From Spirogloea muscicola (Eukaryota; Streptophyta; Zygnematophyceae; Spirogloeales; Spirogloeaceae), in the NCBI GenBank assembly GCA_009602725.1, contig WELB01000199.1, forward strand, positions 122,820 through 164,715: a stretch of 41,896 bases of DNA. Direction: 5' to 3'. The notes under the pieces are model-generated. The model did not search any database. It was not told where the DNA came from and was given only the letters and a program-made list of their open reading frames with translations. Position 1 is the stretch's first letter, and the number at the start of each line of letters is the position of its first letter. Positions 254-38,304 of this stretch are shown piece by piece. The translations under genes were made by a program, and so were the position numbers.

Positions 254-487
254 CTGTGGACTCTCCGACACCTAATAGTATCTACTGTTTCATGAACTCC
301 TGCTCTTCTTGATACTTGATTTCTGGTCAAGTAGCGCGCGATGATAGCTCTGCTGATCATTTGGGTTTGTTTTGCCAGTGGGTCTTTATCGTCTCCCTTT
401 CTAACGTCAAGTGCAGGCAGTCCATGGAGGCTACGTGCTTGGTCTTAGTGGAACAATGAGCTTTGCTGGAGGCGTTGAGGCCTATTA

Positions 488-2959
488 TTGTTGGTGGCGT
501 TTTGTGGCAGCCGGATCCACACAACGGATCACCTCCTGGTGGCGCATCACGCGCCGTCGCGCGGCGCGGCGTCGCTCGCCGAGAACTGGCTCAGCTCCAC
601 GAGCGACGCGGCGACGACCCGCGCGGCGGCGGAGGAGGCCATGGCCCTGGCCAGAGCCGCGGCCAAGGCCGCGCGCGAGGCCGCCGCCATGGCCTCCGCC
701 GGCGGCTACTTCCCACCACCGCCCACAGCCCGCCACAACGGTGCCTCTAACCAAGGTGGCTCGTCGCTGCCCAGCTCGAGGGACCGCCGCGTCGGCGCCG
801 ACGATGCTCGGCCGTGCCTGGAGGCCGGCAAGGGCTCCGAGGTCCTGTGGGAGGACGAGGGCGAGGTGCCGACGGCCATGGCGCAGGCCATGGAGCGGGC
901 GCAGGAGCAGGCCCGCCTGCGGGACGACAAGGCTGCAGCGAGCTGTGGCGCCGGCGGCGATGAGGCCACGAGGACCTTCGCCGTGCGCTCCACGAAGCGG
1001 ATCGAGCGGCTGCAGAAGCGGGAGCGTGCGACCGAGCGCGCGGAGCAGGTGGCCGCCGCCGCCTCCATCGCCGCACCGATCAAGGCCAAGAAGCCGTCGC
1101 TCGGGCAGCACGACCCCTCCGACCCCATCCGGTCGTACCTTCGCGAGATTGGCAAGACGCGGCTGCTCACAGGCCTTGAGGAGGTGCAGCTCAGCCAGGG
1201 CATCCAGGTCAGTCACCACTAGCCCCCCTAGCTGTGAACTTGAGGACATTGATAGCTGCGTGGCAGCCTTTTTCTGCTATAGAGTATGTGCCGAGGGAAT
1301 TGATTGAGCAGTGTTTTGACAACTTATCGTTATTACTGGCTCTTAGACGTACTGTAGGTTTTAGTGTGCCTCAGTCAGTGCATATCAATGTGCACGCACT
1401 AAATTGTGGATGCTATACTGAAATTGCAGGATCTGCTGAAGCTGGAACGGCTGAGCAAAAGCCTGGCAGAAGAGCTGGGGCGGGCGCCGACGCTGGCGGA
1501 GTGGTCGCGCGCTGCCGGCATGGAGCAGACGGCGTTCGAGACCCGCGTCAAGGATGGGCGTGCCTGCAAGGACAAGATGGTGCTCTCGAACCTGCGCCTC
1601 GTCGTCTCGGTCGCCAAGAAGTACCAGGGCCGCGGCATGGCCTTCCAGGACCTCATCCAGGTCCACAGCTGGGCAGCCATTGAACGCCACTCATTAGTTG
1701 CCATTAGCATGGCATCATCACTTGTCTCGGATGTGCGAGTTGTGGCCCCCAGTTGCTGCTGAAGAGAATATTGGCTTGCTGTGAAGATCGATGCTGAGCA
1801 TGTTGCCACATACAAGTTCCAGCTGTGCAGGCCTATGCTATTGCCTCCAAGTTACGCTACCAGTGATTGTTATCTTAGATTGAGCTGAGATTGACCTAGC
1901 TAGGGTCTTGTGGCGGCTGCAGGAGGGCAGCATGGGCCTCATTCGCGGTGCAGAGAAATTTGACCACACCAAAGGCTTTAAGTTCTCGACATATGCACAC
2001 TGGTGGATCCGGCAGGCCGTGACACGCGCCATTGCTGACCAGGCCCGCACCATCAGGCTGCCGGTGCGCCACTCTCAGCCCTGAAAGACCAACGGCATTG
2101 TTTTTGTCGGCCAGGGCCGCACAATTGGATCAGATTGTCAGCTTACTGCAACATTGATGAGCAGCTAAGGTATGGTCATGCAGCATGAAGGTGTAGCCAA
2201 ATCTAGTGGTGCACGGCAACAGTTTGGCTCAGCAGCTGCTGACCATATTGTCAATGTGCGCATGGGACAGGTGCACTTATACGAGGTCATTTCGCGTATC
2301 AACAAGGCAAAGAAGCTGCTTATCCAGGAACATGGGCGGCCGCCGCGTGAGGATGAGCTTGCGGAAATCGTAGGCATGCCCGCCGACAAGATCAGGTCAA
2401 TTCTCAAGGCTGCGCGCATCCCTGTATCTATGGAGAAGCCGGTTGGCAAGGACGGCGACCAGACCCTCTCGGTGAGCCCGCATGTGTTTTCTTGCCTGAA
2501 AGGTTGTCGCTGCATACATCCACAGAGGTTGTGGTCGCATTATCACCGATATTCGTCATTTCAAGAGTTTCGATCATTGATTGCTTGTGCTGGCATGTCA
2601 GGCACTAAGTCTATGCAGAATCAGGCTAAATGGGCACTTACTGGTTCTATTTGGCTACTGCTGCTGTGTGCCTCCAGGAGTGCATCGCGGATCGCGACAT
2701 AGAGTCGCCCGAGGACGCTATTGCAAAGCGGTTGCTGAAGCAGGACTTGGAGGCGGTGCTCCACACGCTCAACCCACGCGAGCGCGAAGTGATGCGGCTG
2801 CGCTATGGCCTTGATGATGGCCGCGTGAAGACGCTCGAGGAGATTGGGAACATCTTCCGGGTTACGCGCGAGCGCATTCGGCAGATTGAAAGCAAAGCCC
2901 TGCGCAAGCTGCGGCAGCCGAGCCGCAACAGCGTCCTGCGCGCTTACCTTGAGGTCTGA
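488..2959 (+). CDS. SIG: plastid sigma-70 factor for the plastid-encoded RNA polymerase
   Basis: This is a sigma-70 factor that would direct the bacterial-type plastid RNA polymerase to promoters. I place five exons: (488)-1207, 1430-1660, 1923-2063, 2271-2471, 2678-2959, all joined in phase 0. Exon 1 ends in region 1.2 ([17 protein letters not shown]). Region 2 spans exons 2-3 and includes [17 protein letters not shown], the core-binding segment around [15 protein letters not shown], and [13 protein letters not shown] for -10 recognition and melting. Exon 4 is region 3. Exon 5 is region 4, with a helix-turn-helix ending [18 protein letters not shown], and stops at TGA 2957-2959. Exon 1 is very GC-rich with an Ala/Arg-rich leader. 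Its frame is open from 479, the first in-frame ATG is at 641, and an acceptor at 510 could join an upstream transit-peptide exon, so the N-terminus is unresolved. About 473-524 aa, normal for plant-type SIG proteins. The subfamily cannot be assigned by eye. Confidence 0.92.
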
Positions 2960-4382
2960 GGCCCCGCCCGCAGCGCTGCCTTGGCCTGCTCGTTCCGCAG
3001 CACCGGAGGTCGATACCTCTCCCTCCTTTTGCCCTTCTCCCTGCTTTCTCTCTCCTCCGCCAGGGGGAAGTGGCTGAAGCAGCTACGGGACTGGAGCTGC
3101 ATATGGGCCCGCTCCTTCCTGTGTATCTAACCATTATTGGAGCACGCCTGCCAGTGTTGAGCAGGACTCAGCACCGGCGGCCAGCGTGCGCGGCGACCGG
3201 GCCATAGATGGCCCAGCGCTGACTAGTGCAGCTCAGGACAGACACCTTGGTATTGAAACGGGACAGATGTGCATTGAGGATCAGACCAGGTTGTCAGCAT
3301 GCGAGTGTTGAGATGGCCTTCACGTGTGCAGCTCACTTGAGTCGGTGGAGCCCCTCAGGCATAAATGTCCTGAAGGGTAAACGACTGCTCAGTGCCAGCA
3401 GCCCCCAAATTGGATACAGTATGTCAGGCGCCGCTTGTGTGGTTGACCTGGCAGCCTATCATGTGCGGTGCCATCAGGGATGCATATTGCCTTGTCACTG
3501 AAGGTTCAAGATTTTTGCATGCACGATTTGTCTTCACGTCAGGCCAACATGCTTGCATCTCTGCTGGTCTTTGTTGGTCGTGCTTTCTGTAGCGGCTGCT
3601 ATGGATGCTACTTAGAGCAAGACCTCAGAATGCGAGATAAGGAGCTGGCCCCAGGTGAGCACCAAAGGGCACCGGGTATGGGCATCTTTGTTTCGATGGT
3701 CTCAATGGGCGAGTGGAAGAGGGAAAGCTCATGTAGTGGGCAAAAGGTTTGCCATATGTTATCATGTTGATGCCCACTAATTACCGCTTTGACAGAGTTT
3801 GCCAGATTGACTCAAAGGCAGTGTTAGCTTCCAATGACTGCAGAATGCAAAGTAACTCGCTGAGTTGCAATTTCAGCAAAATTTTGCCAATGAAGAACAG
3901 CGCTTCCAAATTGACTGATGGCTGTGAGAGGCCAGCCCAAAAGAATGGACAAGGTCTGGAGGGGCCAATGAGGTACACATGCCTCGACGATTGTGCGATG
4001 CCTGCAGACTTGTTCCAATGCAGGTTTCAGCAAATTATACACAGTGCTGCACTTAGCAAGAAGAAAGTGCGCGCTCATAGCGGCACTTAGCGGCAAGAAG
4101 ATTAAGGCGGGAAAGATAAGCGGGCCGGGAGATGGCGGAACCCAGGGCCGTGAGACACACGCCTCGTCCCGCCAAAATTGGTGGGGGGGGGCGCGGGAGT
4201 GCCGGAAAAGCGCGCGAACGGGCGAGCCTCCGCGAACACCCCCCCCACAGTCCGCCACGGCGGTGCCGCCCCCCCTCCTCCCCCCCTCCTCCCTCCCTCC
4301 TCCAGCCAGGCCCCTGCTCTCGCCACACCCGGCCTCCCTCCACTCTCAGCTCCGGAGGCCGAGGCCGCAGGCCAGGCCCGCC
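2960..4382. other. intergenic region between sigma factor and DDM1 genes
   Basis: No convincing coding exon was seen. It should contain the 3' UTR of the sigma gene. A copy of the dispersed hairpin repeat lies at 3921-3966. From about 4130 the sequence turns strongly GC-rich, with C/T-rich runs, up to the DDM1 start codon; that part is probably the DDM1 promoter and 5' leader. Open frames here (for example 3226-3501 and 3749-4090) have no recognisable motifs. Confidence 0.6.
3921..3966 (-). repeat. dispersed hairpin repeat, copy 1
   Basis: Reverse-strand copy of the short repeat recurring in intergenic parts of the window. Read on the minus strand it has the order GGCCCCTCC, AGACCTTGTCCATTCTTTT, then GGGCTGG, a short loop, and CACAGCC. 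The closest relatives are the copies at 10872-10933 and 10501-10580. Confidence 0.75.
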
Positions 4383-9252
<4,870 letters not shown>

Positions 9253-11228: not shown

Positions 11229-11229
11229 N
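11229..11229. other. single N between GGC and GCC runs (likely collapsed gap)
   Basis: The N is flanked on the left by a (GGC)n run and on the right by a (GCC)n run, so the flanks are near reverse complements. This is a typical place for a polymerase stop or a misjoined assembly. Reading frames across it should not be trusted. Confidence 0.6.
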
Positions 11230-17300: not shown

Positions 17301-20300
17301 GCAAGACAATCTCAGCATTTAGGTGCTCAGTGATACACCCAAGAAGCCTGCAGGGCACCAATTACTCAAGCTCAGTCTTCTTGAGGAGAGCTCATTAGGC
17401 ACATCTTGCCGCTTCAAAATACATGTGTATTTTGAGGTCTGAGGGCTCCTCAACGTGCTCACTCTGATTCTACAGGCTCGCTTCCACTAAGAAGGTGCTC
17501 GTAAAGGTGGACCTGGAAGGCAGTTCATTGATGCTATGTGAAATAGGATTCCTACATACGGGAAGTCGAAATGCTAGGCCGCGATGGGGCCTGCCCATGA
17601 CTTCATGTGTGGGTCTAAGCATGAGAAATTGCTCTACACTCTGTACTTACTGTGTCTTTTCTAGTCATTATGACCACACACCCAGAGTCGTCAAATTGGG
17701 GACGCCCTGCGCGTCCTGCCATCTAGATGCTCATTGCGCACACAAGAATCGTGACGTCTGGTGAGTACAAGCAGATTGAACATGGCATGGCTGATGCGCC
17801 AAAAGCAAGTTGGATCAACTTTATTGGAGGCATGTATCGCAGGCAGCTGAAGATAGCAGTGGAAGAACGCACATACTTGCAGCAGCATGGACCTTCCATA
17901 CTCAACATAGCCGCCCTGCTCCTTATTGCTGCAGTCATCAAAGGTTGGATGAGATACTAAAGCGACTGTCATGACCGATTTATACTGATGATCCAACATA
18001 GTTGGATGCAACATAGCAGGAAGGTGCCTCCCTTGAGGATGCATGAAAGCCAATCTTGTCAAATGCCATTAAGCTCGGACACGAAAGGTAAGGTAAGAGG
18101 CTCACTAGTACTGAGTGGACTTTATGACAACAAGATGTGCTGGCAGATTCACCCCGTGAGCTAGGGTGTTTGTAGTACAAAGGACTTGGAGGTCAGCATT
18201 TCGGAAGAGGCCCTCGACCAGGTGCCTATCCCTGTGATCCATTCCCCCGTTATGGAAGCCCACTTCCTTTCACAAACGAGAAAAGCTTAGACAGCGACGT
18301 CTCATAATATTCCATATGCCAGATCGTGCACTGACTTCGCTTAAGGACCTTTCACAATGGACCATTCAATTGCTCCAATAAAGCAAAAGCAACTTTACCA
18401 GTTGTAAATTTGACGAATAAGGAGGGAGGTTGGTTAGCTGGTGCTTACCACCACACCTTATGCATATCTGCATCTGTTTGTCACTTGTGGCAAGAGCAGC
18501 TGCTTGAAGTGACTCATGATGGTACTGACTCTTGATGAAGCTGAATTGTGAACCTGGGCGCAGAACTTCTTCGGCAAGGTACAGTGCAGCATCCTGAGCT
18601 CCTTTCCTTGTGCTGCAGAAGACAAGAGATGGCTTGCCAGCACTGTGCTGCGTAATGATATCTACGGCACAGTATGACAAACACATCTGCTCTGTCAGGT
18701 CAGTCCCTCTTGAACACGTCCATATGTGTAGGAAGGTGTAATTTCTAGGTGCTAGCATGACAACTACTTAACAAGCTTGCGTTCATAGATAGCACTCTTA
18801 TTGAAGCCTAGTGCACCTTCCAAAGGCCTATCATATGGAAACTTCTTTGAGTCCGTTCACCTAAGAGGAAATTTTGTAGTTTCTGCAAGGTCATGAAAGA
18901 TGAGTGTCAAGAGTGCATATAGTCGACTCATATCTACGATAGCTTGTCCCCAGGATTGAGAGCTCAACAAAATCCAACCATCTTGCTGTGTCTAGAGTAA
19001 TATCAAAGCAGGGCAAAGCCCTAAGACTCAAATTCTACATGCAATAGTCACTGTATTGCTACAGACTCTGCTAATGATGGTGCCAATATACATACCTTCT
19101 CAAAGAAGTAGTCATTTCGAGCAGCGGAATAGCCTGTAATAATCAAGAAGCTACAAAGCGTCAGATCAGAGCGAAAAGAGCTATTGCAACGTACAAGCTC
19201 ATTGTTCAATGCTCATCGAGGTGAATTGAAAGAAATGAACAACTTTCTATGCATTACGGAAAGCTACAAGTGGTCCAAGCACCTAGTACTCTTGTGACAA
19301 GTTGGACAGGCCTCGTCTCCTCTCCAAACCTGCACTCACAGGTGTGTGATGAAGATAGATTTAGACATAGTAGACTGCTGCACTGCTGATATAACAGACC
19401 ATCAGATTGGAGAAAATTTGACTGCTTCTGTGGGACACTACCTATTCACTGGCTGGATCTGATGAAGTGGCTGCAAATGTCTGTCCTGCCACATTTGAGA
19501 TGCAAATGCAAATGCAACGGCCATGGAAAGGGTGCCTCAGCTCGTAAATGACTTACTTGCAAAGGCCACTGTGATCAACTTGGAGCCATTCTCCTGCAGA
19601 ATCTCAGACAATCTACTTTTCAGTAAATGTGTACAGCAGGCGCGAGCACAACACATTAGAGGCATTTATCCAATGCAGTATCAAGATGTGCATCTTCCTT
19701 CAGACTCAACGATGAGGGCCACAGCTGTGTCCTTCCTGGAACTTAGCTTAGTTACAAAGACTTACTGACCTATATCTTCGATATTGGGAATGGTGGCCGA
19801 CACTGCCATAAATCGTACAGCAGCTATCTGTGTCTGTCGCATCTCTGGGAATCTGGCCAACATCTTGATGCGGCTAACTACAGCTTCAAGTGTTGCACCA
19901 CGAGATTCGCTGAGGAGGTGCACTTCGTCAATTAGGAGGAGGCCAATGTCAGCAAAGAAGCCCAAGCCTCCGCGATCCCTGTGCTTCCTGCTGATCGCAT
20001 CAAACTTCTGCATTTACAGATGAACCTTAGTAATTACCCAGGGGATTCCCAGGAGAGTGCACAGACAGTCAGAGGAGTACTGAGTAGGAGTGGTACCCTG
20101 CTATGACATTCTCAGATGAGATAAGACACTCTTATGATATATAATGAAGACGTTCGTGTGTGACGTGTATTATACAACGCAGGACAATGCCTTATGACGC
20201 GTGACTCGAGATATCACGTATAGATGTGGTGTATGAAGCATGGAGTAGGATATGTGAAGTATGAAGCATGCCGCATGACAAATGACATTTGACATTCACA

Positions 20301-26895: not shown

Positions 26896-27482
26896 GGGGA
26901 CTGGTGGCAGGGGGGGGGGGGTTGGAAACGGGGAAATGAGAGGCAATTAAATCGAAACCGTCGGCCAATGCCCTCGGCGAGCGGCTGGTAACGGATACAA
27001 GCGCCGGCCGGCGAGAGGGGGGGGTTCCGGCGGCGGGGGGTGCTGACGACCCGGGGCCCGGCCGATGACGGCGACGGGCGGCGGGGCGGAGCCGGAGGGC
27101 GCTGACGGCGCCGCTAGCTTTCGTCTAGCGCGCGGGCCCGCTTCGGCGCCCTGCGCTAACCCCGACGGCTCCGAGGGGAGAGGGAGGGCGGCCCCGGGCG
27201 AGGCGTCCGGTCACAGCATCGACGTGCGAGCGGGGAGGGAGGCTGGGACGCCCGTTAGTTCCTCGCTTACTTTCGGCCAGGGCCCTGGAGGCCGAGCCTC
27301 GGACGCCGCCATTGCCGCAGCAGCCGCCGCCGCCGCTGCCGCCGTCGCCGCCTCCGTGTTCGCAGCCGGCGCCGCCGCCGAATGCGGGATGGCGTCGTCC
27401 TGACCCGCCGATTGGCGGCGGCGGCGGTGGAGATGAGGGCGGCGGCGGGGTGGCAGCGGCGGGCTGCGTAGCGGCGGCGCCG
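26896..27482. other. GC-rich leader and promoter region of RPP30
   Basis: Strongly GC-rich sequence with CCG/GCC runs up to the RPP30 start codon. The long open frames on both strands (27065-27403, 27267-27653) are low-complexity Ala/Arg/Pro translations with no domain. The region probably holds the promoter and 5' UTR. Confidence 0.5.
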
Positions 27483-30400
27483 ATGTTCTACGACCTGAAC
27501 CTCGCGGCGGACAGCCTCGGCGGCGGCCAGGCGCTGCGCGAGGCGCTGGCGCTGGCCGTGCGCCTCGGCTACCACGGCGTCGCGCTCAACCACGCCGTCT
27601 CGGGGCCCATGTCCGAAGCCGACGCCTGCCGCCTCAAGCCGCTGGACTTCCAATCAGGTCTGCATGGGCCTGCCCTGCCAGAACAAGCTTGCGTGATCGC
27701 ACCGTCACACACCTAGCCACAAGCTGAGTGACGAGTGCGCACATGCAAGGCCGTAGAGCCATTGGGGAGTTCACGGCGAGTGTAGAGGACAATGGCAGAT
27801 GGTGATGGACAGAGGCATTGCCTTCAGGTTAATACGACTACGAGTCACGGACAAACAGCTTGTGCTCACGATTGATCAGGCCTTCCATGCAGTCCTGGCA
27901 GCGGCCCCCGGCGTGGCCGAGGGCGCGAGGTGGCACCAGGTACCTTCCAATCAGCTGTAAGCCCACCACTACTTCTTACTGCCTCGGAGAGTGGTGGTCA
28001 CTCCGTCTGTACCTTCTGTTGCTTTTTGCATGCTGAAAGCGGAAACACTTTGTCAAGTAGGTTTGGGGTTTTGGGATTTAGGCTTTACCCACAACTTGTC
28101 AGCAAGGAAGAACAGCATCACGGAGGAAGCCTCCATTGCCAATGCATATCTGGTGTTTCTCACTGGACTTTGAGGTGCTGCGAGCTGTAGCGAATGTACC
28201 TGCATTGCAATAGAAGCCTCTGTTATTCAAGAGGGAGCTATGAGCAGCGCAAAGGCTGCCATGCAAACCAGGCAACTATCACGCCGTGAATCATAGCAAA
28301 ATCCAATGCTATGGATTCATGAGCAGATGGCCTCCGTCCGTGCGCTTCTTCTTTTCCATGGGAAAGACGGAGCTTTAAGCATAGGCCTTGTACACTGCAG
28401 GGGTTGCTGGCAAGGTCACCTGCAAGGGAGTCTAAGCAGCTCACGCGAATAACAGGTGCGCTAATGACCAATCCATGTAGGGCACCGCAGATTTATACTC
28501 ACCCACCACAGCACTGAACTTTGGACAGCTGCTTCTTAGGAAACCATCGCTTGATCTGTGTGAAGTGCGTCAACTCTGGCTTCCTGATGCTTATGTGCTT
28601 CAGAGATGTTGCCAAAGTTCTAACAGTCAATCTGATCACATGCTAGATTGTGAAGCCTCATGCTACTCCCCTGCTTACTTCACAGTTTCAACTGATGATA
28701 CCAGTCACTCAAGCGCTCTGAACTCGGGGAATTTGGTGTTGGCATCTTATGACCTTGTTGCTATCCAACCTCTCAGCCAGAAAGTTCTTGCTCAAGCATG
28801 CTCATCTTTAGATGTAAGCTACCTTCTGGACGATGAATTTAGCGTCATGCTTGCTTTTTGTATGGTGGCTCTGTGAAGATGTGTAGCCCTTTGTTGTTCC
28901 TGCTGGAGCAGCTGATGTTCAGTCTGGAGTTGTTTGGTCGAGTCAAAACCACCCGTCAAGCGATTCTTAGACCTACAGCTTTCTGCTCTTCAAGTTGCAG
29001 GTGGACTTGATAAGTCTGGATTTGAGTCAAAGGTTGCCATTCCGATGGAGGCCGCCCATGATCCAGGCAGCTCTGAAGGTGAGATGAAGTCGGTATTTGC
29101 CACCTCACAAAGAAGAAGTCAAGCTCTGCTTTAAAGAGCCTCATGTCTTTCGAGTTAGTCAAAAATATATGCTGCTATAGGAACACTCAGACTGAGCTCT
29201 ACCAAATTCGCCTCGGGCACGGTGGTAAGGACATGCTTGTAAAGCCACTGTGTGTCAGGTGCAAGTTGCCATAAGAGCTGACAGTGTTCTTTGCTTTTGT
29301 CCTTATACTTCAGAGAGGTATCCACTTTGAGATCTCATATGCAGCTGCTCTGCGAGACCTTCAAGCACGGCGCCAATTTTTCTCAAATGCACAGGTTAGT
29401 ATCTTCTTGACATATTACTACTGCTGTCCTTCTCAGAGCAGTATCATCTGCAAGAGTAAAGTGCCTTGTCCCTTACCTGGCAAGTCTGGTCTGACCCTGA
29501 CATGCCCTCTCAGGCGTTAGTGACAGCTACACGTGGAAAGAATCTGGTGATTACAAGTGGGGCGCAGCAGGCATTTGAGATGCGAGGCCCATATGATGTA
29601 GCAAACATGGCCACACTCTTCGGAATGAGTGTGGCTTCGGCCAAGGCAGCTCTTGCTCAGAGCTGCTTGTAAGTTGATGAGCTTCTACATATTGCTAGGA
29701 GGTCATTTGAGGACAATCTACCTTGCAGTCGTTGAAGCAGACAATGCTTCTTGCCACAAAGTTATCTCTGAGCATTGACCACCCCTACAGTTGCTGTGAA
29801 GTCGACTCTCTGCTTTTTGCTTATAGAATTTATCGTTTTTTGATGTTCAAGTCCCTGATTCTAGCTCCCTCTTTCTACCAGGTCAGTGCTGATCCATGCA
29901 GAGACAAGGAAGATGACGTACAAGGCAGCGGTGCAGATTGAGCCGTCCACAGCTGCAGTGACGAGCTCTGCCTTTACGGTGAGCGACTCATGGGAAGTGG
30001 ACCTTGCCACCAGTCAGGTTGGGGAAGCTTCTCAAGAGCAGCCGCGGCGCGATGCAGTCAATGCAGCAGAACCGGCCAAGACGCAGGAGCCTGTGAAGAG
30101 CTCCTCCTTGGCGGGTCTTATGGCAGCTGATATTGATGACCGAGGGAAGGCCCAAGTGATGCCAGAGCAGATGCCAGCGAAGGTGCCCTTTGCTGTCGAT
30201 GACAGGAGAGATGCAACTGGTGCGTTTGTCCCCAGCATTGGCAGCAACGCAGGTGCCTCGAGCAACGCAGGTCCCTCGAGCAGCAGTGGTAAGAACATGC
30301 CACAAAGGGAAAGTGAGGACTTCATCTCCATGGTATGGAATGGCACGCTTGATGTGAAGGAAAGTGTGCCAGCAGGAAAGAGCCGCTTGCCCAATCTGCC

Positions 30401-30485
30401 AGGACCCTCCCATAGGAAAAGAGGGCGAGGACGGGGCCACCCGCAGGCTTTGCCTCGAACGATTGGCAAGAAATACCAACACTAG
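27483..30485 (+). CDS. RPP30: RNase P / RNase MRP protein subunit RPP30
   Basis: Subunit of the nuclear RNase P and MRP complexes, which process tRNA 5' ends and pre-rRNA. Exons: 27483-27657 (start MFYDLNLAADSLGG), about 27880-27939 (AFHAVLAAAPGVAEGARWHQ), 28440-28455 (16 nt, LTRIT), 28686-28813 (SYDLVAIQPLSQKVLAQACS), 29001-29078 (VDLISLDLSQRLPFR), 29314-29394 (RGIHFEISYAAALRD), 29514-29668 (GKNLVITSGAQQAFEMRGPY, DVANMATLFGMS), 29882-30485 (SVLIHAETRK and a long tail). The TIM-barrel core follows RPP30 end to end. The link from exon 1 to exon 2 is unresolved: the 27657 donor gives the wrong phase, so either a later donor near 27693 or a missing exon is used. After the core, about 180 residues rich in Ser, Ala and Glu end in a basic stretch (HRKRGRGRGHPQA). 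The start is the first in-frame ATG. Confidence 0.93.
28440..28455 (+). other. 16-nt micro-exon of RPP30
   Basis: CTCACGCGAATAACAG sits between an AAGCAG acceptor and a GTGCGC donor. It supplies Leu-Thr-Arg-Ile-Thr plus the first base of the next Val codon. This is exactly what is needed to join exon 2 (phase 0) to exon 4 (phase 1) and to restore the conserved (Y/L)TRLTV strand of the family. Confidence 0.82.
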
Positions 30486-31476
30486 CATTGTTTTGATTAG
30501 CAGGACTTAGGTGTATTCACCACATTACACTCGTCTTCAATGAAGTAGAGAGTGCGGAATCGCTGAGCAATAGGCGTAGGAGTGTGCCTCTCTGAGAGAA
30601 GCTGGCCTCTTTGACTTGGTCTTGCAATCAGCACATGTTGATGTTTGCTAGCTCACAGGAGCTAGTATGAGCCTGTAGTGGCGCATAAGCGCACCTTGAA
30701 GTCTTCATTGCAACGGACTTATCAAGTCTGCATCCAGTCACTCACAATGTTATAGCAGTGGCTGCCCACTTGGCAAGCACATACTGTATGCAAAGCAGGG
30801 AAGTGGGCAGGAAGGTGGGGCATATGGAGAGATTGGCAGGGTGGGTGTCGGCTTGAAGCGCAAGATCAACTATCACAAACACAGACTAATCCAAGCCCGC
30901 GAGCACGGCACCTCCAACTCAGCTTCGGTTGGGAAAGCTACCTTATCCACCTTACATGGCCCAATGGCATCAAAGGAGTAACCCATCCTGCCGCCCGAAC
31001 TGCTCATAGCAAAGCCTTAACAATAATCGAAAAGCCCATCCGATGGGAGTGACCTACCTTGACAAGTATTGGCGGGTATTGACTAGGCAAGCGGTGTGTA
31101 CCTTGTGTGTGTAATCAAATCGGATTAGCCAGCAGGCAGATAGACGTCGCCCTGACGGAAACCGGAGGCCGCAGTCAAGAGAAATTGCTCGCCCTCAGAA
31201 AACGATGGGCTAGCAAAGCCGAATAGAAAAGAATGGACAATATCTGCAGTCCAAAAAGGCCACAAATCGGTGCCGAAAAAAAAAAAGAACACACACCAGC
31301 AGCCAAGGTGCGGCCTGCATGCAAGTGGACAGCGAAGGCAAGGGACCGCTGCAGGGAAACGGCCAAGGGCATCCGGAAATTGAGCAAGGGACCCGGCGGC
31401 ATTGAAGCCAGGCTGCTCGCTCTGCTGCCCTTGACGGCGGGCCACTGCACGTCGCGCAAGGCGGTGGAGAGAGAAG
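30486..31476. other. intergenic region with a mosaic repeat segment
   Basis: It starts with the RPP30 3' UTR and contains no recognisable gene. A minus-strand frame over about 31125-31200 reads TAASGFRQGDVYLPAG and has a counterpart at about 35995-36050 on the plus strand (AAASGFRQGDSVP). A second block around 31385-31450, including GCATTGAAGCC, recurs at 35790-35850. These look like pieces of a repeated element. Confidence 0.5.
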
Positions 31477-31715
31477 GCGCGTGGTGCGCATGAAATTGAA
31501 AGGGAGGCCAATTCTAGCCTTTCAAATGTCCTGGTGACTGGGTAATGAGCTGGCTAAGGGGGACACTAATATCCCCGAGTATGCACATGCATATCTGACA
31601 AGCTATACTGCGGCGCCAAACCACCACCACGGAAGCCATTAGCCTGGGCTAATGCACGACCAGCACACTGGTGAATCGCGAGTGCTTGGGAGCGCTGCAG
31701 ACTCAATGATAGCCT
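31477..31715 (+). repeat. dispersed repeat A, copy 2
   Basis: It begins AAGGCGCGTGGTGCGCATGA, continues with the TGAAAGGGAGGCCA block, TCCTGGTGACTGGGTAATGA, CTAAGGGGGACACTAAT, the ACCACCACCACGGAAGCCAT block and TGGTGAATCGCGAGTGC, and ends near GGGAGCGCTGCAGACTCA. It is highly similar to 35169-35436 in the same orientation. It is also the empty-site version for the small insertion at 35371-35394. Confidence 0.88.
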
Positions 31716-32977
31716 CATCCTTTAGCATGCAATGATGGCTTGCGGGACGCTAAAATGGCCTAAGCTACCCGCCCAACTACGTCGGCGGGCATCAACATGC
31801 AGTGCCAGGCGATGGAGGAGGGCAGACCACTTCGTTCCATAGCCGCCGTATATGTCCATGGCGCATGGGAAGAAGTGGTCGCCCGGGGGTGGTCATTATA
31901 GTGCCTCTCCTTCTTCCTCTCCGCATGATGTGTCGCCCAACCTGGCACAGTGGGTGTGGGTCAAGCCAGCGAGTCTTAAGCGCCCCGTGTACGTCGACGG
32001 CGAGCGGGACGCACTCGGCCCCCACTGGGAGGTCGGCGCATGTGCGTTCCTTGACGCCCGCCGCTTGGCGGACTGCATAGTCCGCCTCCTCCGACGAGCG
32101 TTGGGCGCTCCTGGAATCGACGCAGTCGGTGGTGACGACGTCGGCAATGAGCCGGGCCCCCCCCCGCCTAGAGAAAGAGCTCGCCCATTGAGGATAGGGG
32201 CTGGAACAGCCAGCCCAAAAAAGAATGAGCCGAGTACAAGAAGCCCAAGAAGAAGGGGGCCAGGCGAAGCACTAAGGCGAAGCACTAAGAAAGAAGCACA
32301 CAAGAAGAAACAAAGCAGCTACTAACTAGTCCGCCTAGCGCGCTGGCGACGAGATCGGCACTCCGGGTGGGAAGGCGGCCATCCGCCCCAGCTGTCAGGG
32401 GCCTGACGCTGGAATTCTCCAGCGACACCGTGTAAGCGGCCTCCAGGAATGTGCCTTACATAGCGTTGCGCAGCAGGTCGTGAGTGCCGGTCCGCTCCCC
32501 TCCCTGTGCACCGGAGCATGTGGGCCGCCAAATACGCCATTCTGAACAGCGCTCGCCGCACTCACACTGCTGTACACCACTAAGGCAGGGTGGATCAGTA
32601 AGAAGTATAAACCTATCCCAGGTGTGAGCTATCTTTTCATTTGAACTATCTTTGTATACGTGCTTTTACTCTTTCTTTGCTTGTGCCTCTTCCAAGAAGG
32701 GGTGAGTGAAAGGTAAAATGCTCTTAAGCGCTTCTGCATTGTCTGCATTGAGCGAACTTATCGTATCCAACCTTGCTTTTCACTTGTATTGGATCATTGA
32801 ATCAACTAAAGGATTCAGACCTAATCTACCGCTTTAGCAAACCCATAGGAGTTAGCCACTCTTGAGTTGGAGCTGCGCTGAAAGAATATAGCAAAAGCTA
32901 CCCCAACCTACAAGGTCCTTTACATGAAAGTAAGGATTAAAAACAATCTAGTATTCTTATATCGAGATCCGGGTGCA
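31716..32977. other. repeat block upstream of the inverted ORF pair
   Basis: No gene is supported. A plus-strand frame (31852-32325) contains RPVYVDGERDALGPHW, which resembles GPVYVDRKGRAFITN at about 35897-35940, and then runs into a hairpin repeat. This points to a fragment of a repeated coding element rather than an intact gene. The 32580-32970 part is AT-richer and featureless. Confidence 0.4.
32173..32230 (-). repeat. hairpin repeat, second subfamily
   Basis: Read on plus: GAGCTCGCCCATTGAGGATA, then GGGGCTGGAACAGCCAGCCC, then AAAAAAGAATGAGC. The next nearest copy is at 36709-36760. This subfamily has the GGGCGAGC module in place of the CCCCCATTGGGAG module. Confidence 0.75.
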
Positions 32978-32984
32978 ATGGGCG

Positions 32985-34061
32985 ATGGCGATGGAGGTCC
33001 ATGATATGCTGCCTGACGCAGAGGGCGGTGGCGGCGGCGGCGAGCCTTTTGCCAACCCCGAGCGAGCCACGGCTGAGCAAAGGTTGGATGCCTTCATACA
33101 AATCGCCTCCGTTGCGGGCGCCGCCGAAGCCGCCATCATCGCCGCTGCGGTCGACAGCGACGGCGAGGGAGAGTGGGCGAAGGACATTGGGCGGGGGAAG
33201 CAGAAGGCGGAAGAGCAGCCGAAGCAGCATGGCCCCGCAAACGCCACTGGCCCAAGAGCCTCCCAACGTCGAGGAGAAGGAAGTGGCGAGGCGAGGAACC
33301 AGGAGAAAGATGATGTGCAGGAGGGTGCAGCGGAGGGTGTGAAGGACAAAGGGAAGGCCCCAGCAATCGATGAGTTGAGAAGCGATTCGAATGAGCGACC
33401 AAACGCCGGCATCATAGGCCAGGGTGAGCGCAGTGCGAGGATGAGCGACGAGCAGGTGGTGTGGCTGGAGGGGGCACTGAGGCACTGGAGCCAGTGGATG
33501 GAGACTTGCGTCCCAGGGCAGATGACGTCCATGCCGGGCAGTAAGTACGTGGGCTTCGATCCCGCGCGCGAGCCGCAGGTCTTGCGTGAAGGTAGGCTGA
33601 ACCTCGTGGGCCATGACGAGTACCAAGTCTGCGTGTCCAACTCCTGCAAGGCCGCAGTCGGTGACAGGGTCCTCTTCTTCAGGGACGTCGGCATCAACTA
33701 CAAGGACGGGTCAGTCACCACGCAGATAGTCTGCGACGACGTCGTCATCAAAGAGTTGGACTCAGTAGCCCTGGGCAAGATACAAGGAATCACGGGCGCA
33801 AGCGACAGGCAAGTGGGGGCTGATCACTGCTGGGTGGGCTTCCCCGTCCAGGACTTCACCAAGATTTCTCACTCTATCGGTACGCTGAGGCCGAGCGTGA
33901 TGAGCACGCTGCAGGTGGCTTCTGGGCACTATTGGGCAGTCTCGGGCTGGGGTGTGAGGGACAATATGGAAATGCAGGGGTTGTCCCTCATACCCCCGAG
34001 ACGGTCCAATAGTGCCCGGAAGCCACCTGCAGTGTGCTCATCACGCTCAGCCTCAACATAG
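32985..34061 (+). CDS. unknown protein, plus-strand member of an inverted ORF pair
   Basis: Intronless frame of unknown function. The N-terminal half is low-complexity: a Gly run, then an Ala-rich helix, then an acidic/Lys-rich, probably disordered stretch (KDKGKAPAIDE). The C-terminal half looks like a folded, beta-rich domain (SKYVGF, LVGHDEYQVCV, AVGDRVLFFRDVGI, TQIVCDDVVIKELDS, VGFPVQDFTKISHSI, QVASGHYWAVSG). The minus-strand ORF 34971-33988 is homologous over almost the whole length, with its stop next to this one's end. After VASGHYWAVSG a 4-nt difference removes the partner's stop position, and the frame reads through the centre into the antisense of the partner to 34061; these last ~35 residues are probably not native. 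The first ATG (32978) is out of frame here because of a small deletion relative to the partner; 32985 is the in-frame start. Confidence 0.6.
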   Translation: MAMEVHDMLPDAEGGGGGGEPFANPERATAEQRLDAFIQIASVAGAAEAAIIAAAVDSDGEGEWAKDIGRGKQKAEEQPKQHGPANATGPRASQRRGEGSGEARNQEKDDVQEGAAEGVKDKGKAPAIDELRSDSNERPNAGIIGQGERSARMSDEQVVWLEGALRHWSQWMETCVPGQMTSMPGSKYVGFDPAREPQVLREGRLNLVGHDEYQVCVSNSCKAAVGDRVLFFRDVGINYKDGSVTTQIVCDDVVIKELDSVALGKIQGITGASDRQVGADHCWVGFPVQDFTKISHSIGTLRPSVMSTLQVASGHYWAVSGWGVRDNMEMQGLSLIPPRRSNSARKPPAVCSSRSAST

Positions 34062-34971
34062 CAATAGATTGAAAGATCTTGGTGAAGTCCTGGACGGGGA
34101 AGCCCAGCCTGCAGTAGTCAGCCCCCGTTTGCCTGTTGACCGCGCCCTTGAGTTTCTGTATCTTGCCCAGTGTTATTGAGTCCAATTCTTTGATGATGAC
34201 GTCGTCGCTGACTATCTGGGTGATGGCGGACTTGTCCTCGTACTTGATGCCGACCTCGCCAAAGAACAGGACCGTGTCACCGACTGCGGTCTTGGGGGGG
34301 GCGGACATGCAGACCTGGTACTTGTCATGGCCCACAAAGTTCAGCATACCTCCACGCAAGACCTGCCGCTTGCGCGAGAGCGAGCAATTGAAGCCCACGT
34401 ACTTGCTGCTCGGCGTGAACGTCATCTGCAACGAGTTGTAAATCTCCATGCTCTTGGTGAGGTTTGCGCATGCCTCCGCCAGCCTCACCACCTGCTCTTC
34501 GCTCAGCCTCGCACTGCTCTCTCCATGGCCTGTGATGACGGCGTTCGGTGGCTCGTTCGTATCCCTCCTTGACTCATCTATCGCTTGGGCCTTCCCCTTG
34601 TCCTTCACACACTCCGCTGCACCCGCCTGCGCATCATCTTCCTCCCGGTTCTTGGCCACTTCCTCCCCCTCGGCCATGGGAGGCTCTTGGAACAGCGGCG
34701 GTTGCGGGCCATGCTGCGTCGGCTGCTCTTTCGATTTTCGCTTCCCCCGCCCGATGTCCCTCGCCCACTCTCCCTCGCTGTCGGCCGCGACGGCGATGAA
34801 GGCGGCTTCGGCGGCGCCCGCAGAGGAGGCGACCTGTATGCAGGCATCCAACAGATTGATCAGCCGCGGCTCGCCTGCGCGCGGCAAACGCTCGCCGCAG
34901 CCGCCGCCGCCCTCTGAGTCAGGCAGCGGGTTGTGGACCTCCGCCGCCTCGGCTCGGTCGCCATCGCCCAT
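33988..34971 (-). CDS. unknown protein, minus-strand member of the inverted ORF pair
   Basis: Intronless frame from ATG 34971-34969 (MGDGDRAEAAEVHNPLPD) to TGA 33990-33988, about 327 aa, homologous to the plus-strand ORF 32985-34061. It has the same plan: acidic/Gly-rich start, Ala-rich helix (ASSAGAAEAAFIAVAADS), a charged linker, then the conserved domain with SKYVGF, LNFVGHDKYQVCM, AVGDTVLFFGEVGI, TQIVSDDVIIKELDS, LGFPVQDFTKIFQSI and QVASGHYWTVSG. Differences between the copies are spread along the sequence while both frames stay open, which suggests both were under protein-level selection for some time. No family or catalytic motif is recognised. The frame is also open upstream to the N at 35050. 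Confidence 0.62.
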   Translation of the reverse strand: MGDGDRAEAAEVHNPLPDSEGGGGCGERLPRAGEPRLINLLDACIQVASSAGAAEAAFIAVAADSEGEWARDIGRGKRKSKEQPTQHGPQPPLFQEPPMAEGEEVAKNREEDDAQAGAAECVKDKGKAQAIDESRRDTNEPPNAVITGHGESSARLSEEQVVRLAEACANLTKSMEIYNSLQMTFTPSSKYVGFNCSLSRKRQVLRGGMLNFVGHDKYQVCMSAPPKTAVGDTVLFFGEVGIKYEDKSAITQIVSDDVIIKELDSITLGKIQKLKGAVNRQTGADYCRLGFPVQDFTKIFQSIAMLRLSVMSTLQVASGHYWTVSGV

Positions 34972-35049
34972 TGCGGGGCGGGTGCCGGCTCGGCGACCGG
35001 CGCTGGGCTCGGCGACCGGCGCTGGCTGGGCTCGCCAGCGACCGCGTCG

Positions 35050-35050
35050 N
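35050..35050. other. single N at the start of a GGC run (likely collapsed gap)
   Basis: Preceded by ACCGCGTCG and followed by (GGC)n. It lies just upstream of the minus-strand member of the inverted ORF pair, so the promoter side of that ORF is not reliable. Confidence 0.55.
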
Positions 35051-35168
35051 GGCGGCGGCGGCGTCGCTGGCGGCGGCGGCGGCGGCGTCGGCAAGCTCGG
35101 GGGCCCTCGGGCATGCATGCAGGGAAAAGTTGCGGCTACCGATATTCAGATGCCGGGAAGAGGAAGAC

Positions 35169-35436
35169 GAAGGCGCGCGGTGCGCATAACATTGAAAGGG
35201 AGGCCATTTCTAGCCTTCCAAAAGTCCTGGTAACGGGATAATGAGCTGCTAAGGGGGACACTAAATATCCGCGAGTGAGCACATGCGTATCTGACAAGCT
35301 AAGCTGAGGAGCCAGACCACCACCACGGAAGCCATTAGCCTGGCTGCACACTCAGCACGCTGGTGTATCGGAGAAGTGGCAGTCCAAATGGGGGCACGCT
35401 GGTGTATCGCGAGTGCCTGGGAGCGCTGTAGACCTG
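35169..35436 (+). repeat. dispersed repeat A, copy 3
   Basis: It begins AAGGCGCGCGGTGCGCATAA and keeps the same blocks in the same order as 31477-31715: TCCTGGTAACGGGATAATGA, CTAAGGGGGACACTAA, ACCACCACCACGGAAGCCAT, and GTGCCTGGGAGCGCTGTAGA at the end. It carries a 24-nt insertion at 35371-35394 between two exact 15-bp copies of CACGCTGGTGTATCG. Confidence 0.88.
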
Positions 35437-35535
35437 AGCGCGCTGAAGAGGATCGTCCTCTCCCCCTTTGTTTCTTCTTGTGCTTGTTTCTCTTAGCGCT
35501 TCCCCTGGCCCCCTTCACGTACTTTGTTCACTCCT

Positions 35536-35760
35536 TTTTTGGGCTGGCTTTTCCAGCCCCTATCCTCAATGGGCGAGCACTTTCTCTCTCTCTTCTGGCC
35601 GCGCTTGCTTTCCTGGCCAGTCGCAGCGATTGCCCTCTGTCGAACCCTTGTCCATTCTTTATGGGCTGGCTTGGCCAGCCCCTCTTTCTCTATGGGCGAG
35701 CCTTTTACTATCACAGCCCTTGCCCCCATTTGGAGTGCCACTTCTTCTTTCTTTCTGCTG
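35536..35760 (+). repeat. hairpin repeat cluster 1
   Basis: Tandem-like copies in one orientation. A second-subfamily unit (GGGCTGGCTTTTCCAGCCCC then TGGGCGAGCACTTTCTC) at about 35540 is followed by another with GGGCTGGCTTGGCCAGCCCC at about 35663. That one runs into a first-subfamily 3' module (TTGCCCCCATTTGGAGTGCC, ACTTCTTC). The stem arms are intact in both. Confidence 0.8.
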
Positions 35761-36269: not shown

Positions 36270-36765
36270 CAGCCCTTGCTTTTGGGCTAGCTTTGCCAGC
36301 CCCTCTTCTCTATGGGCGAGCACTTTCTCTTGCCCCAATCCTCCAAACCTTTGTCAATTCTTTTTGGGCTGGCTTTTCGCAGCCCTTGCCCCCATTGGGA
36401 GTGCCACTTCTTCTTGCCCCCATGGGAGAGCCACTTCTTCTTTTCGGGCTGGCTTTTCACAGCCCTTGCCCCCATTGGGAGAGCCACTTCGTAGAAGTGC
36501 TCGCCTATAGAGAAGAGTGGCTGGCAAAGCCAGCCCAAAAAGAATACACTTCTCTCCAGCCACCGCCCTCTCTTGGCCTTCGTTTGTTTCAAATACACGA
36601 ATTTCTTCTGCCTAAGAAGCGTCTTCTTCTTTGGGCTGGCCTCTCACAACCACTGCTGTCAATTGTGAAGAGCTTTTTCTCAAATGGGCCAGAGAAGGAA
36701 GGAAGGGCTCGCCCATTGAGGATAGGGGCTGGAAAAGCCAGCCCAAAAAAGAATGAACAAAGCGA
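36270..36765. repeat. hairpin repeat cluster 2, both orientations
   Basis: Plus-strand units: GGGCTAGCTTTGCCAGCCCC at about 36285, GGGCTGGCTTTTCGCAGCCC at about 36366, GGGCTGGCTTTTCACAGCCC at about 36450 and a decayed GGGCTGGCCTCTCACAACC at about 36633. Minus-strand units: 36493-36546 (GGCTGGCAAAGCCAGCCC) and 36709-36760 (GGGGCTGGAAAAGCCAGCCC). Both subfamilies are mixed. This is the densest occurrence in the window. Confidence 0.82.
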
Positions 36766-37359: not shown

Positions 37360-38304
37360 ATGGTGGTCGTGGACCAGCTCTCGGCCAGGCTTCAGCAAGC
37401 ACAGCTTATGCCACAGCAGTATTCGGACGATGATGTGGACGGAGATGAGGCCAGGGACGAGGCCGGTCTATCTGACGGCAACAGCCAGGACAGCCAGGAC
37501 AGCCAGGACATCGAGGTCATTCTGCAGAGGTCGTCAGAGTGCCTGTTCAACGGATGCGATGCGATGTCCTTTGTGGCAAAATATGACAGTATGAGTCTGA
37601 GGATGGGCTTCCCAATGTGTATGTCCCACGTGGACACCGCGGAGATGAGACGGTCCCTGGCCACCGTGGACAAGAACGTGAACATGCAGAAGACCAGCTT
37701 CGTCTTTTACGACTTGAAGACCAGCTACCCACACTCCAACGACGTGACACAGATAGGGGCCGTCTCCGACGCCGGGGCCGAGTTCGAGCAGTACGTCACC
37801 TCGCCCTTCGAGGGAATCAGGGACAAATTTCTGTCCAGTTATCCAAGCAGGTCACTGAAAAATTGGTTGATAGAGCCGGGCCTAGCCTTCGCATTGTTCA
37901 TGGAGTGGTTGGTGAAGACGCACGATGAGAGGCACGGCCGTGACAGCCCCTTAGACAGCCTCATCCTGGTGGCACAATATGGCGCGTGTTTCGACCACAT
38001 GCACCTTGTCAGGTCGTGCAGGAAATACCAGGTGCTCATGCCCAAGTGCAGAGTGGCGGATACCGTGTTGATTTGCAAGATCTTGGAGGGGTTGAGGACC
38101 GATTGCAAGCTCATCACGTTAGTGAGCAGTTGTGCGCCCACGTTCCTGGAGGACCTGGGCGATGCCCGCACAGCTGCACTCGCCCTCTGTAAGGTCATGC
38201 GCTGCATAGACCCTCACTGGAGGGACCTGATTTGGTCGTCGAGTACACCGCTCTGCGACTACGTGACTAGGCTGGGCTTTAGCGCGAGGAAGACGGTGGC
38301 GTAG
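37360..38304 (+). CDS. DEDDh exonuclease-like protein with incomplete active site
   Basis: Intronless 314-aa ORF (ATG 37360, TAG at 38302-38304), unlike the intron-rich genes around it. The N-terminus is acidic with a QDSQDSQD run. From about residue 112 it follows the layout of DEDDh 3'-5' exonucleases: Exo I region FVFYDLKTSY...VTQIGAVSD, Exo II region LILVAQYGACFDHMHL, and Exo III region FLEDLGDARTAALALCKVM. At the expected catalytic places Asp118, Asp212 and Asp268 are present. The glutamate of DxE is Lys120, the usual Asn of the Exo II motif is Tyr, and the Exo III histidine is Leu263. A standard two-metal mechanism is therefore unlikely. It could be a nucleic-acid-binding pseudo-nuclease, a decaying gene, or an unrelated fold; the frame is open throughout and of even composition. 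Repeats flank it on the left. Function unknown. Confidence 0.55.
   Translation: MVVVDQLSARLQQAQLMPQQYSDDDVDGDEARDEAGLSDGNSQDSQDSQDIEVILQRSSECLFNGCDAMSFVAKYDSMSLRMGFPMCMSHVDTAEMRRSLATVDKNVNMQKTSFVFYDLKTSYPHSNDVTQIGAVSDAGAEFEQYVTSPFEGIRDKFLSSYPSRSLKNWLIEPGLAFALFMEWLVKTHDERHGRDSPLDSLILVAQYGACFDHMHLVRSCRKYQVLMPKCRVADTVLICKILEGLRTDCKLITLVSSCAPTFLEDLGDARTAALALCKVMRCIDPHWRDLIWSSSTPLCDYVTRLGFSARKTVA

Follow-up and report, generated by a model that had tools for sequence, protein, structure and literature searches.

A near-palindrome of about 2 kb in the genome of Spirogloea muscicola (153 Mb in 471 contigs) raises the question of what two related open reading frames (ORFs) that face each other tail to tail represent: genes encoding proteins, the source of a hairpin RNA, or remnants of genes. 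It was analyzed here within a window, the whole stretch of 41,896 nucleotides under study (C199:122820-164715); coordinates given without a contig name are those of this window.

Structure of the palindrome

The sequence-only reading described two tail-to-tail intronless ORFs of the same family, separated by 16 nt and forming a near-palindrome of about 2 kb, and this description was confirmed by alignment, by blastn and by the reading frames. In a global alignment, the arms (32978-33966 and 33979-34974) are identical at 796 of 972 aligned bases (82%) and differ at the 176 others, with eight gaps, one of them terminal, and blastn detected a single palindrome at 32987-34948. The inverted arms include an ungapped 382-nt block at 84% identity plus further blocks. 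At the centre (33949-33996), an innermost 16-bp stem (33949-33964 with 33981-33996; 15 of 16 positions paired, 94%) surrounds a loop of 16 nt, and this is the truncation point of both gene copies.

The plus-arm ORF (32985-34061, plus strand, 358 aa; 362 aa as listed from a GTG at 32973) shows homology to the family only up to about 33962-33964, and its last 34 residues correspond to the loop and to the antisense of the minus arm. An ATG is found at the site of the family's start codon (32978-32980, plus strand), but a 14-nt deletion puts it in a different frame from the remainder of the arm; compared to its kin, this arm carries additional shifts of 1 and 5 nt that cancel each other. The minus-arm ORF (34971-33988, minus strand, 327 aa; 376 aa as listed from an in-frame ATG at 35118) ends early after a 4-nt deletion near the centre. 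Upstream of the minus-arm ORF, 155 nt of 5′ flank (34972-35126) are shared with two full-length copies of the family, C199b and C158a, and a further stretch (35127-35367, a dispersed repeat from 35169 on) with the fragment C158b, whereas comparison with the other copies detected no family 5′ flank on the plus arm. Neither arm is a complete gene. The open runs of the arms are nevertheless longer than composition predicts: in 500 mononucleotide shuffles, the longest open run in any frame averaged 168 codons and reached 320 codons once. Antisense open runs (241 and 245 codons) are also present.

The gene family in Spirogloea muscicola

Searching the genome at the protein level yielded 10 matches, which correspond to seven copies of the family, a lower bound: the two arms, C199b (C199:226914-228329, at 226.9 kb), C158a (C158:16618-17856, at 16.6 kb), C158b (C158, at 31.5 kb) and one copy each on contigs C139 and C55. 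C199b, which is full length and lies 70 kb from the minus arm, and C158a have intact and longer ORFs (471 and 412 aa, respectively). The C139 copy is frame-shifted, the C55 copy is spread over several frames and C158b is only part of the 5′ half. The C139 and C55 copies lie in regions colinear over about 30 kb (82-86% identity in the five longest blocks); for C199b and C158a, colinearity extends over about 3 kb within otherwise rearranged and repeat-rich surroundings. Past the motif where both arms are cut short, the sequence continues for 97 residues in C158a, 126 in C199b and 82 in the C139 piece; compared to these three measured copies, both arms are devoid of 82-126 C-terminal residues. 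With 118 aa of the C-terminal part as query, matches were obtained to C158a, C199b, C139 and C55 and, from the arms, only to 21 residues of the plus arm that precede the break; the C-terminal part is retained in four of the five other copies.

The ORFs had been said to belong to no recognizable family, a statement that held in Pfam, NCBIfam, PDB sequences and a protein collection. Pfam gave no match above cut-off for the arms (two sub-threshold ones for the minus ORF, E = 0.067 and 0.22, and none for the plus ORF), nor any for pieces of four relatives; NCBIfam gave none; and PDB sequences gave none for the minus ORF, with a best profile E of 0.11. A known protein or transposon protein family was rejected, as no profile match exceeded the cut-off in these three resources. 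In the protein collection, where a single-sequence search scored 2,527 candidates and a profile search the 7,999 candidates sharing most words, the sole relative was the gene model SM000158S02006 (P0002; s158:16747-17856), which falls on C158a and matches 90% of the C158a ORF at 100% identity. Both searches returned no relative outside S. muscicola, and neither the arms nor C199b as predicted proteins. Among viral contigs, 23 pattern matches included no relative of the family. The predicted structure of SM000158S02006, aligned with the proteins of the two arms, has a mean pLDDT of 30.2. The family is so far known only from S. muscicola and may be fast-evolving. A foldback or miniature inverted-repeat transposon was also rejected: many dispersed palindromes would be expected, and seven copies and one palindrome were found (both lower bounds).

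Relationships of the two arms

Over the domain (33540-33962), identity of the minus arm is 87.9% to C199b, 83.6% to the plus arm and 82.9% to C158a; the plus arm, for its part, matches C158a at 84.5% and C199b at 81.1%. In the 5′ half, the plus arm is 81.2% identical to the minus arm compared to 81.3% for C158b. The minus arm is the nearest copy to the plus arm in two of six segments (32985-33200, 84.6%, and 33830-33962, 88.0%). The 5′ half is mosaic, the minus arm being nearest to C158b (94.4%) and then to C158a (87.1%) in 33200-33420. Among the 52 informative sites of the four long copies, 37 group the plus arm with C158a and the minus arm with C199b, 11 group the plus arm with C199b and four group the two arms together. 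None of six trees joins the arms: the minus arm groups with C199b over the domain (bootstrap 100%, compared to 41% for the node of the plus arm), and in the 5′ half its partner is C199b or C158b. In most trees, the shortest branch is that of the minus arm, which favours raw identities to it. Kinship of the plus arm is weak and its margin of raw identity small, but the minus arm is clearly nearer to the full-length C199b than to the plus arm.

These comparisons indicate that the arms are not sisters and that their divergence precedes their joining. As C199b is full length and the minus arm truncated, truncation and junction would postdate the split between the minus arm and C199b, and hence the divergence of the arms. 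The palindrome had been considered old and possibly maintained because its arms have diverged along their whole length; identities, trees and informative sites do not support this view, since a divergence older than the junction does not date the palindrome. The point is a general one: how far the arms of a gene palindrome have diverged gives no date for it, since the arms may diverge before joining. As the copies are mosaic, the arms could originally have been sisters, with gene conversion masking this relation.

Formation of the palindrome

Homology to C199b stops at 227954 for the plus arm and at 227971 for the minus arm, i.e., 17 nt apart, and homology to C158a stops at 17564 for both. For a gene of about 1,240 nt, we estimate at some 3% the chance that two independent breaks would fall so near each other. 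The palindrome is probably made of two 3′-truncated, pseudogene-like paralogues derived from an inverted pair that lost its middle; they most likely have no function as proteins, and none is established for their RNA. Two already-diverged paralogues of the intronless family would have come to lie tail to tail, and the middle of this inverted pair, including the 3′ ends of both genes, would then have been lost at nearly equal gene positions. The distal stem and the loop of the folded inverted repeat may have been skipped or cut; as folding sets equal gene positions opposite each other, either event would remove equal lengths from both arms. The remnants would be truncated arms that presumably lack any protein function. 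In the innermost stem, two bases are common to both arms and differ from C199b, which is compatible with local copying across the hairpin. The weak kinship of the plus arm, the mosaic copies and reading frames that are open beyond neutral expectation (see below) argue against this deletion model, and no spacer-bearing precursor of the arm pair was found. An inversion with both breaks at one gene position was rejected, as the head-to-head C-terminal pair that it predicts is absent from the matches of the C-terminal query. If inert, the palindrome amounts to two truncated gene copies of an ordinary kind.

Potential for a hairpin RNA

The palindrome could instead be an active silencing locus, in which a transcript crossing the centre would be diced to 21-24-nt siRNAs directed against C199b and C158a, an alternative that we regard as possible but unlikely. 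That such a transcript would fold into a long imperfect hairpin, as proposed from the sequence, was borne out in silico, 865 of 870 predicted pairs on the plus strand and 845 of 849 on the minus strand being formed from arm to arm. The minus arm shares exact 21-mers with C199b (n = 80), C158b (n = 58) and C158a (n = 34), and the plus arm with C158a (n = 31), C158b (n = 6) and C199b (n = 3). The locus therefore displays close inverted copies of a gene fragment, an in silico fold into a long duplex and intact relatives sharing 21-mers, which are among the features of hairpin-siRNA loci, and the fold and the shared 21-mers predict a real capacity to form silencing RNA. Since the family 5′ flank is found on the minus arm and none on the plus arm, a leftward (minus-strand) transcript appears likelier, and silencing would most likely involve transcription from the minus-arm side. 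Both gene ends being gone, transcription leftwards from about 35.1 kb would cross the centre and yield a hairpin RNA of about 2 kb. Machinery of this kind is encoded by Spirogloea, for which three DCL2/3/4 genes, three AGO1/5/10 genes and one member of the AGO2/3/7 clade are reported in a publication that describes small-RNA knowledge in streptophyte algae as “almost non-existent” (PMC7994812).

Several observations argue against silencing. Only three perfect duplex runs reach at least 18 nt (31, 22 and 18 nt), although the longest run attains 45 nt on the plus strand if G-U pairs are allowed; neither arm shares any exact 21-mer with C139 or C55; and Rfam at gathering scores gave no match in 32400-35600. 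Moreover, the 221,896 bases formed by the window and the fetched pieces, which were picked for this study and are not a random sample, contain ten rows of inverted repeats of at least 150 nt within 3 kb, four of which, the palindrome included, have arms that meet at the centre. With three further abutting inverted repeats in this sample, the abutting shape alone is not special here and is weak evidence for silencing.

The architecture resembles that of two loci of land plants. In soybean, GmIRCHS, a candidate for the I allele, is a tail-to-tail inverted repeat of gene fragments (1,087 bp, 78 bp apart) thought to yield double-stranded RNA against intact family members (PMC13051633). In both systems, a fragment of a gene, about 1 kb long, is repeated tail to tail at close spacing, but GmIRCHS includes a portion of a DnaJ promoter and has a known silencing phenotype, whereas the arms studied here are 82% identical and are read from sequence alone. 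In rice, a deletion between the paralogues GluB4 and GluB5 created the tail-to-tail arrangement of Lgc1 that triggers silencing of the family (PMC10647759). A deletion would have left inverted tail-to-tail paralogues here as well; however, silencing is established for Lgc1 and hypothetical here, and both gene ends were lost here at the same gene position. The inverted-duplication model for the origin of plant miRNAs also involves inverted gene-derived copies forming a hairpin (PMC3237417), potentially directed against the parent gene as it could be here, but the arms of this palindrome do not derive from one duplication event. A natural hairpin-RNA locus made of two distinct paralogues and silencing intact family members in a zygnematophyte alga is conceivable, though unlikely. 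If this were true, family silencing of the Lgc1 type would not be confined to land plants; if the palindrome is transcribed, it offers a direct test of the control of gene families by hairpin siRNAs in the algal lineage that is sister to land plants.

Coding constraint

It is rather improbable that one or both truncated ORFs encode a working, shortened protein. A dN/dS well below 1 had been put forward as a sign of protein function, but the value between the arms is 0.75 over 318 codons (0.70 in the domain) and falls within the range of wrong frames: in the frame comparison, the true frame gives 0.76 compared to 0.69-0.93 for the five other frames. In pairwise comparisons of the four long copies (six pairs), dN/dS is 0.75-0.93 overall and 0.58-1.28 by region, and the true frame is the lowest in only two of these pairs. 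The distribution of differences over codon positions showed no departure from 1:1:1 in 12 tests (smallest p = 0.078). Conversely, the codon make-up of the arms is that of coding sequences (GC of 0.75-0.79 at third positions compared to 0.45-0.47 at second positions), and neutral simulations, run 4000 times from each of two roots, never kept all four long frames open; the two arms together stayed open in 0.05% and 0.35% of runs, respectively. Since the frames are open beyond the neutral simulation, some past coding constraint is likely; it probably acted during part of their history, plausibly at a time when the copies were still complete genes. When only the tip branches are considered, the frame stays open by chance in a fraction of 0.27-0.29 of runs for the minus arm and 0.09-0.11 for the plus arm. 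The absence from both arms of the C-terminal part, the out-of-frame start codon of the plus arm and the failure of the protein collection to return either arm as a predicted protein also speak against a short protein.

Assembly and single-duplication hypotheses

An assembly artefact, in which the arms would not be adjacent in the genome, is very improbable. A single N at 35050, in the minus-arm 5′ flank, could point to it. However, a palindrome created by a chimeric read would contain a single locus twice, whereas the arms show the many substitutions and gaps described above, and these differences are phylogenetically structured; furthermore, a random false join would leave unexplained two breaks within 17 nt in gene coordinates. 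The history implied by the sequence-only reading, in which one truncated gene was duplicated once in inverted orientation and the two arms then accumulated their differences in situ, would account for arms of equal length with the same end point, for the two stem bases unlike C199b and for the two segments in which the plus arm has its top raw identity to the minus arm, but it is hardly tenable, as it requires arms that are closest relatives, contrary to all six trees, to 48 of the 52 informative sites and to the grouping of the minus arm with C199b (100% in the domain) or, in the 5′ half, with C199b or C158b.

Surroundings of the palindrome

Other genes of the window include one at 485-2960 (plus strand), which we take to resemble a plastid RNA polymerase sigma factor gene, and one at 27480-30490 (plus strand), presumably related to the RNase P subunit gene RPP30; a DNA query with the 3′ part of the latter (29480-30500) found no second copy. 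A 314-aa ORF at 37360-38304 (plus strand), which to our eyes resembles a 3′-5′ exonuclease, has a single full match in the genome and no Pfam match, and was not found beside other copies of the palindrome family (best E = 0.15). The intron-containing gene at 5600-9240 (plus strand) is, we assume, a SNF2-like helicase gene. It has partners on contigs C16 and C309 at 83-93% identity, in line with the genome triplication reported for Spirogloea (PMC7994812). One 10-kb piece of each of these contigs showed no match of at least 100 bases to the window, so no empty site could be placed.

Another repeat family, unrelated to that of the palindrome, provides one of the four abutting pairs (C16:698026-699158; L034 5840-7120) and forms meeting or near-meeting inverted pairs at C95:5900-6375, C16:711053-711528 and C127:307140-307626. 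A dispersed repeat of about 500 bp occurs in the window at 31467-31961 and, as a shorter copy within the 5′ flank of the minus arm, at 35169-35370; it is also present at C199:235728-236219 (90%) and on C55 and C158. Besides the one at 35050, single N bases lie at 11229 and 26895. Short GGGCTGG...CCAGCCC repeats are found in both orientations at 32172-32228, 35522-35600, 36280-36545 and 36700-36762, and many copies of them occur in the other fetched pieces.
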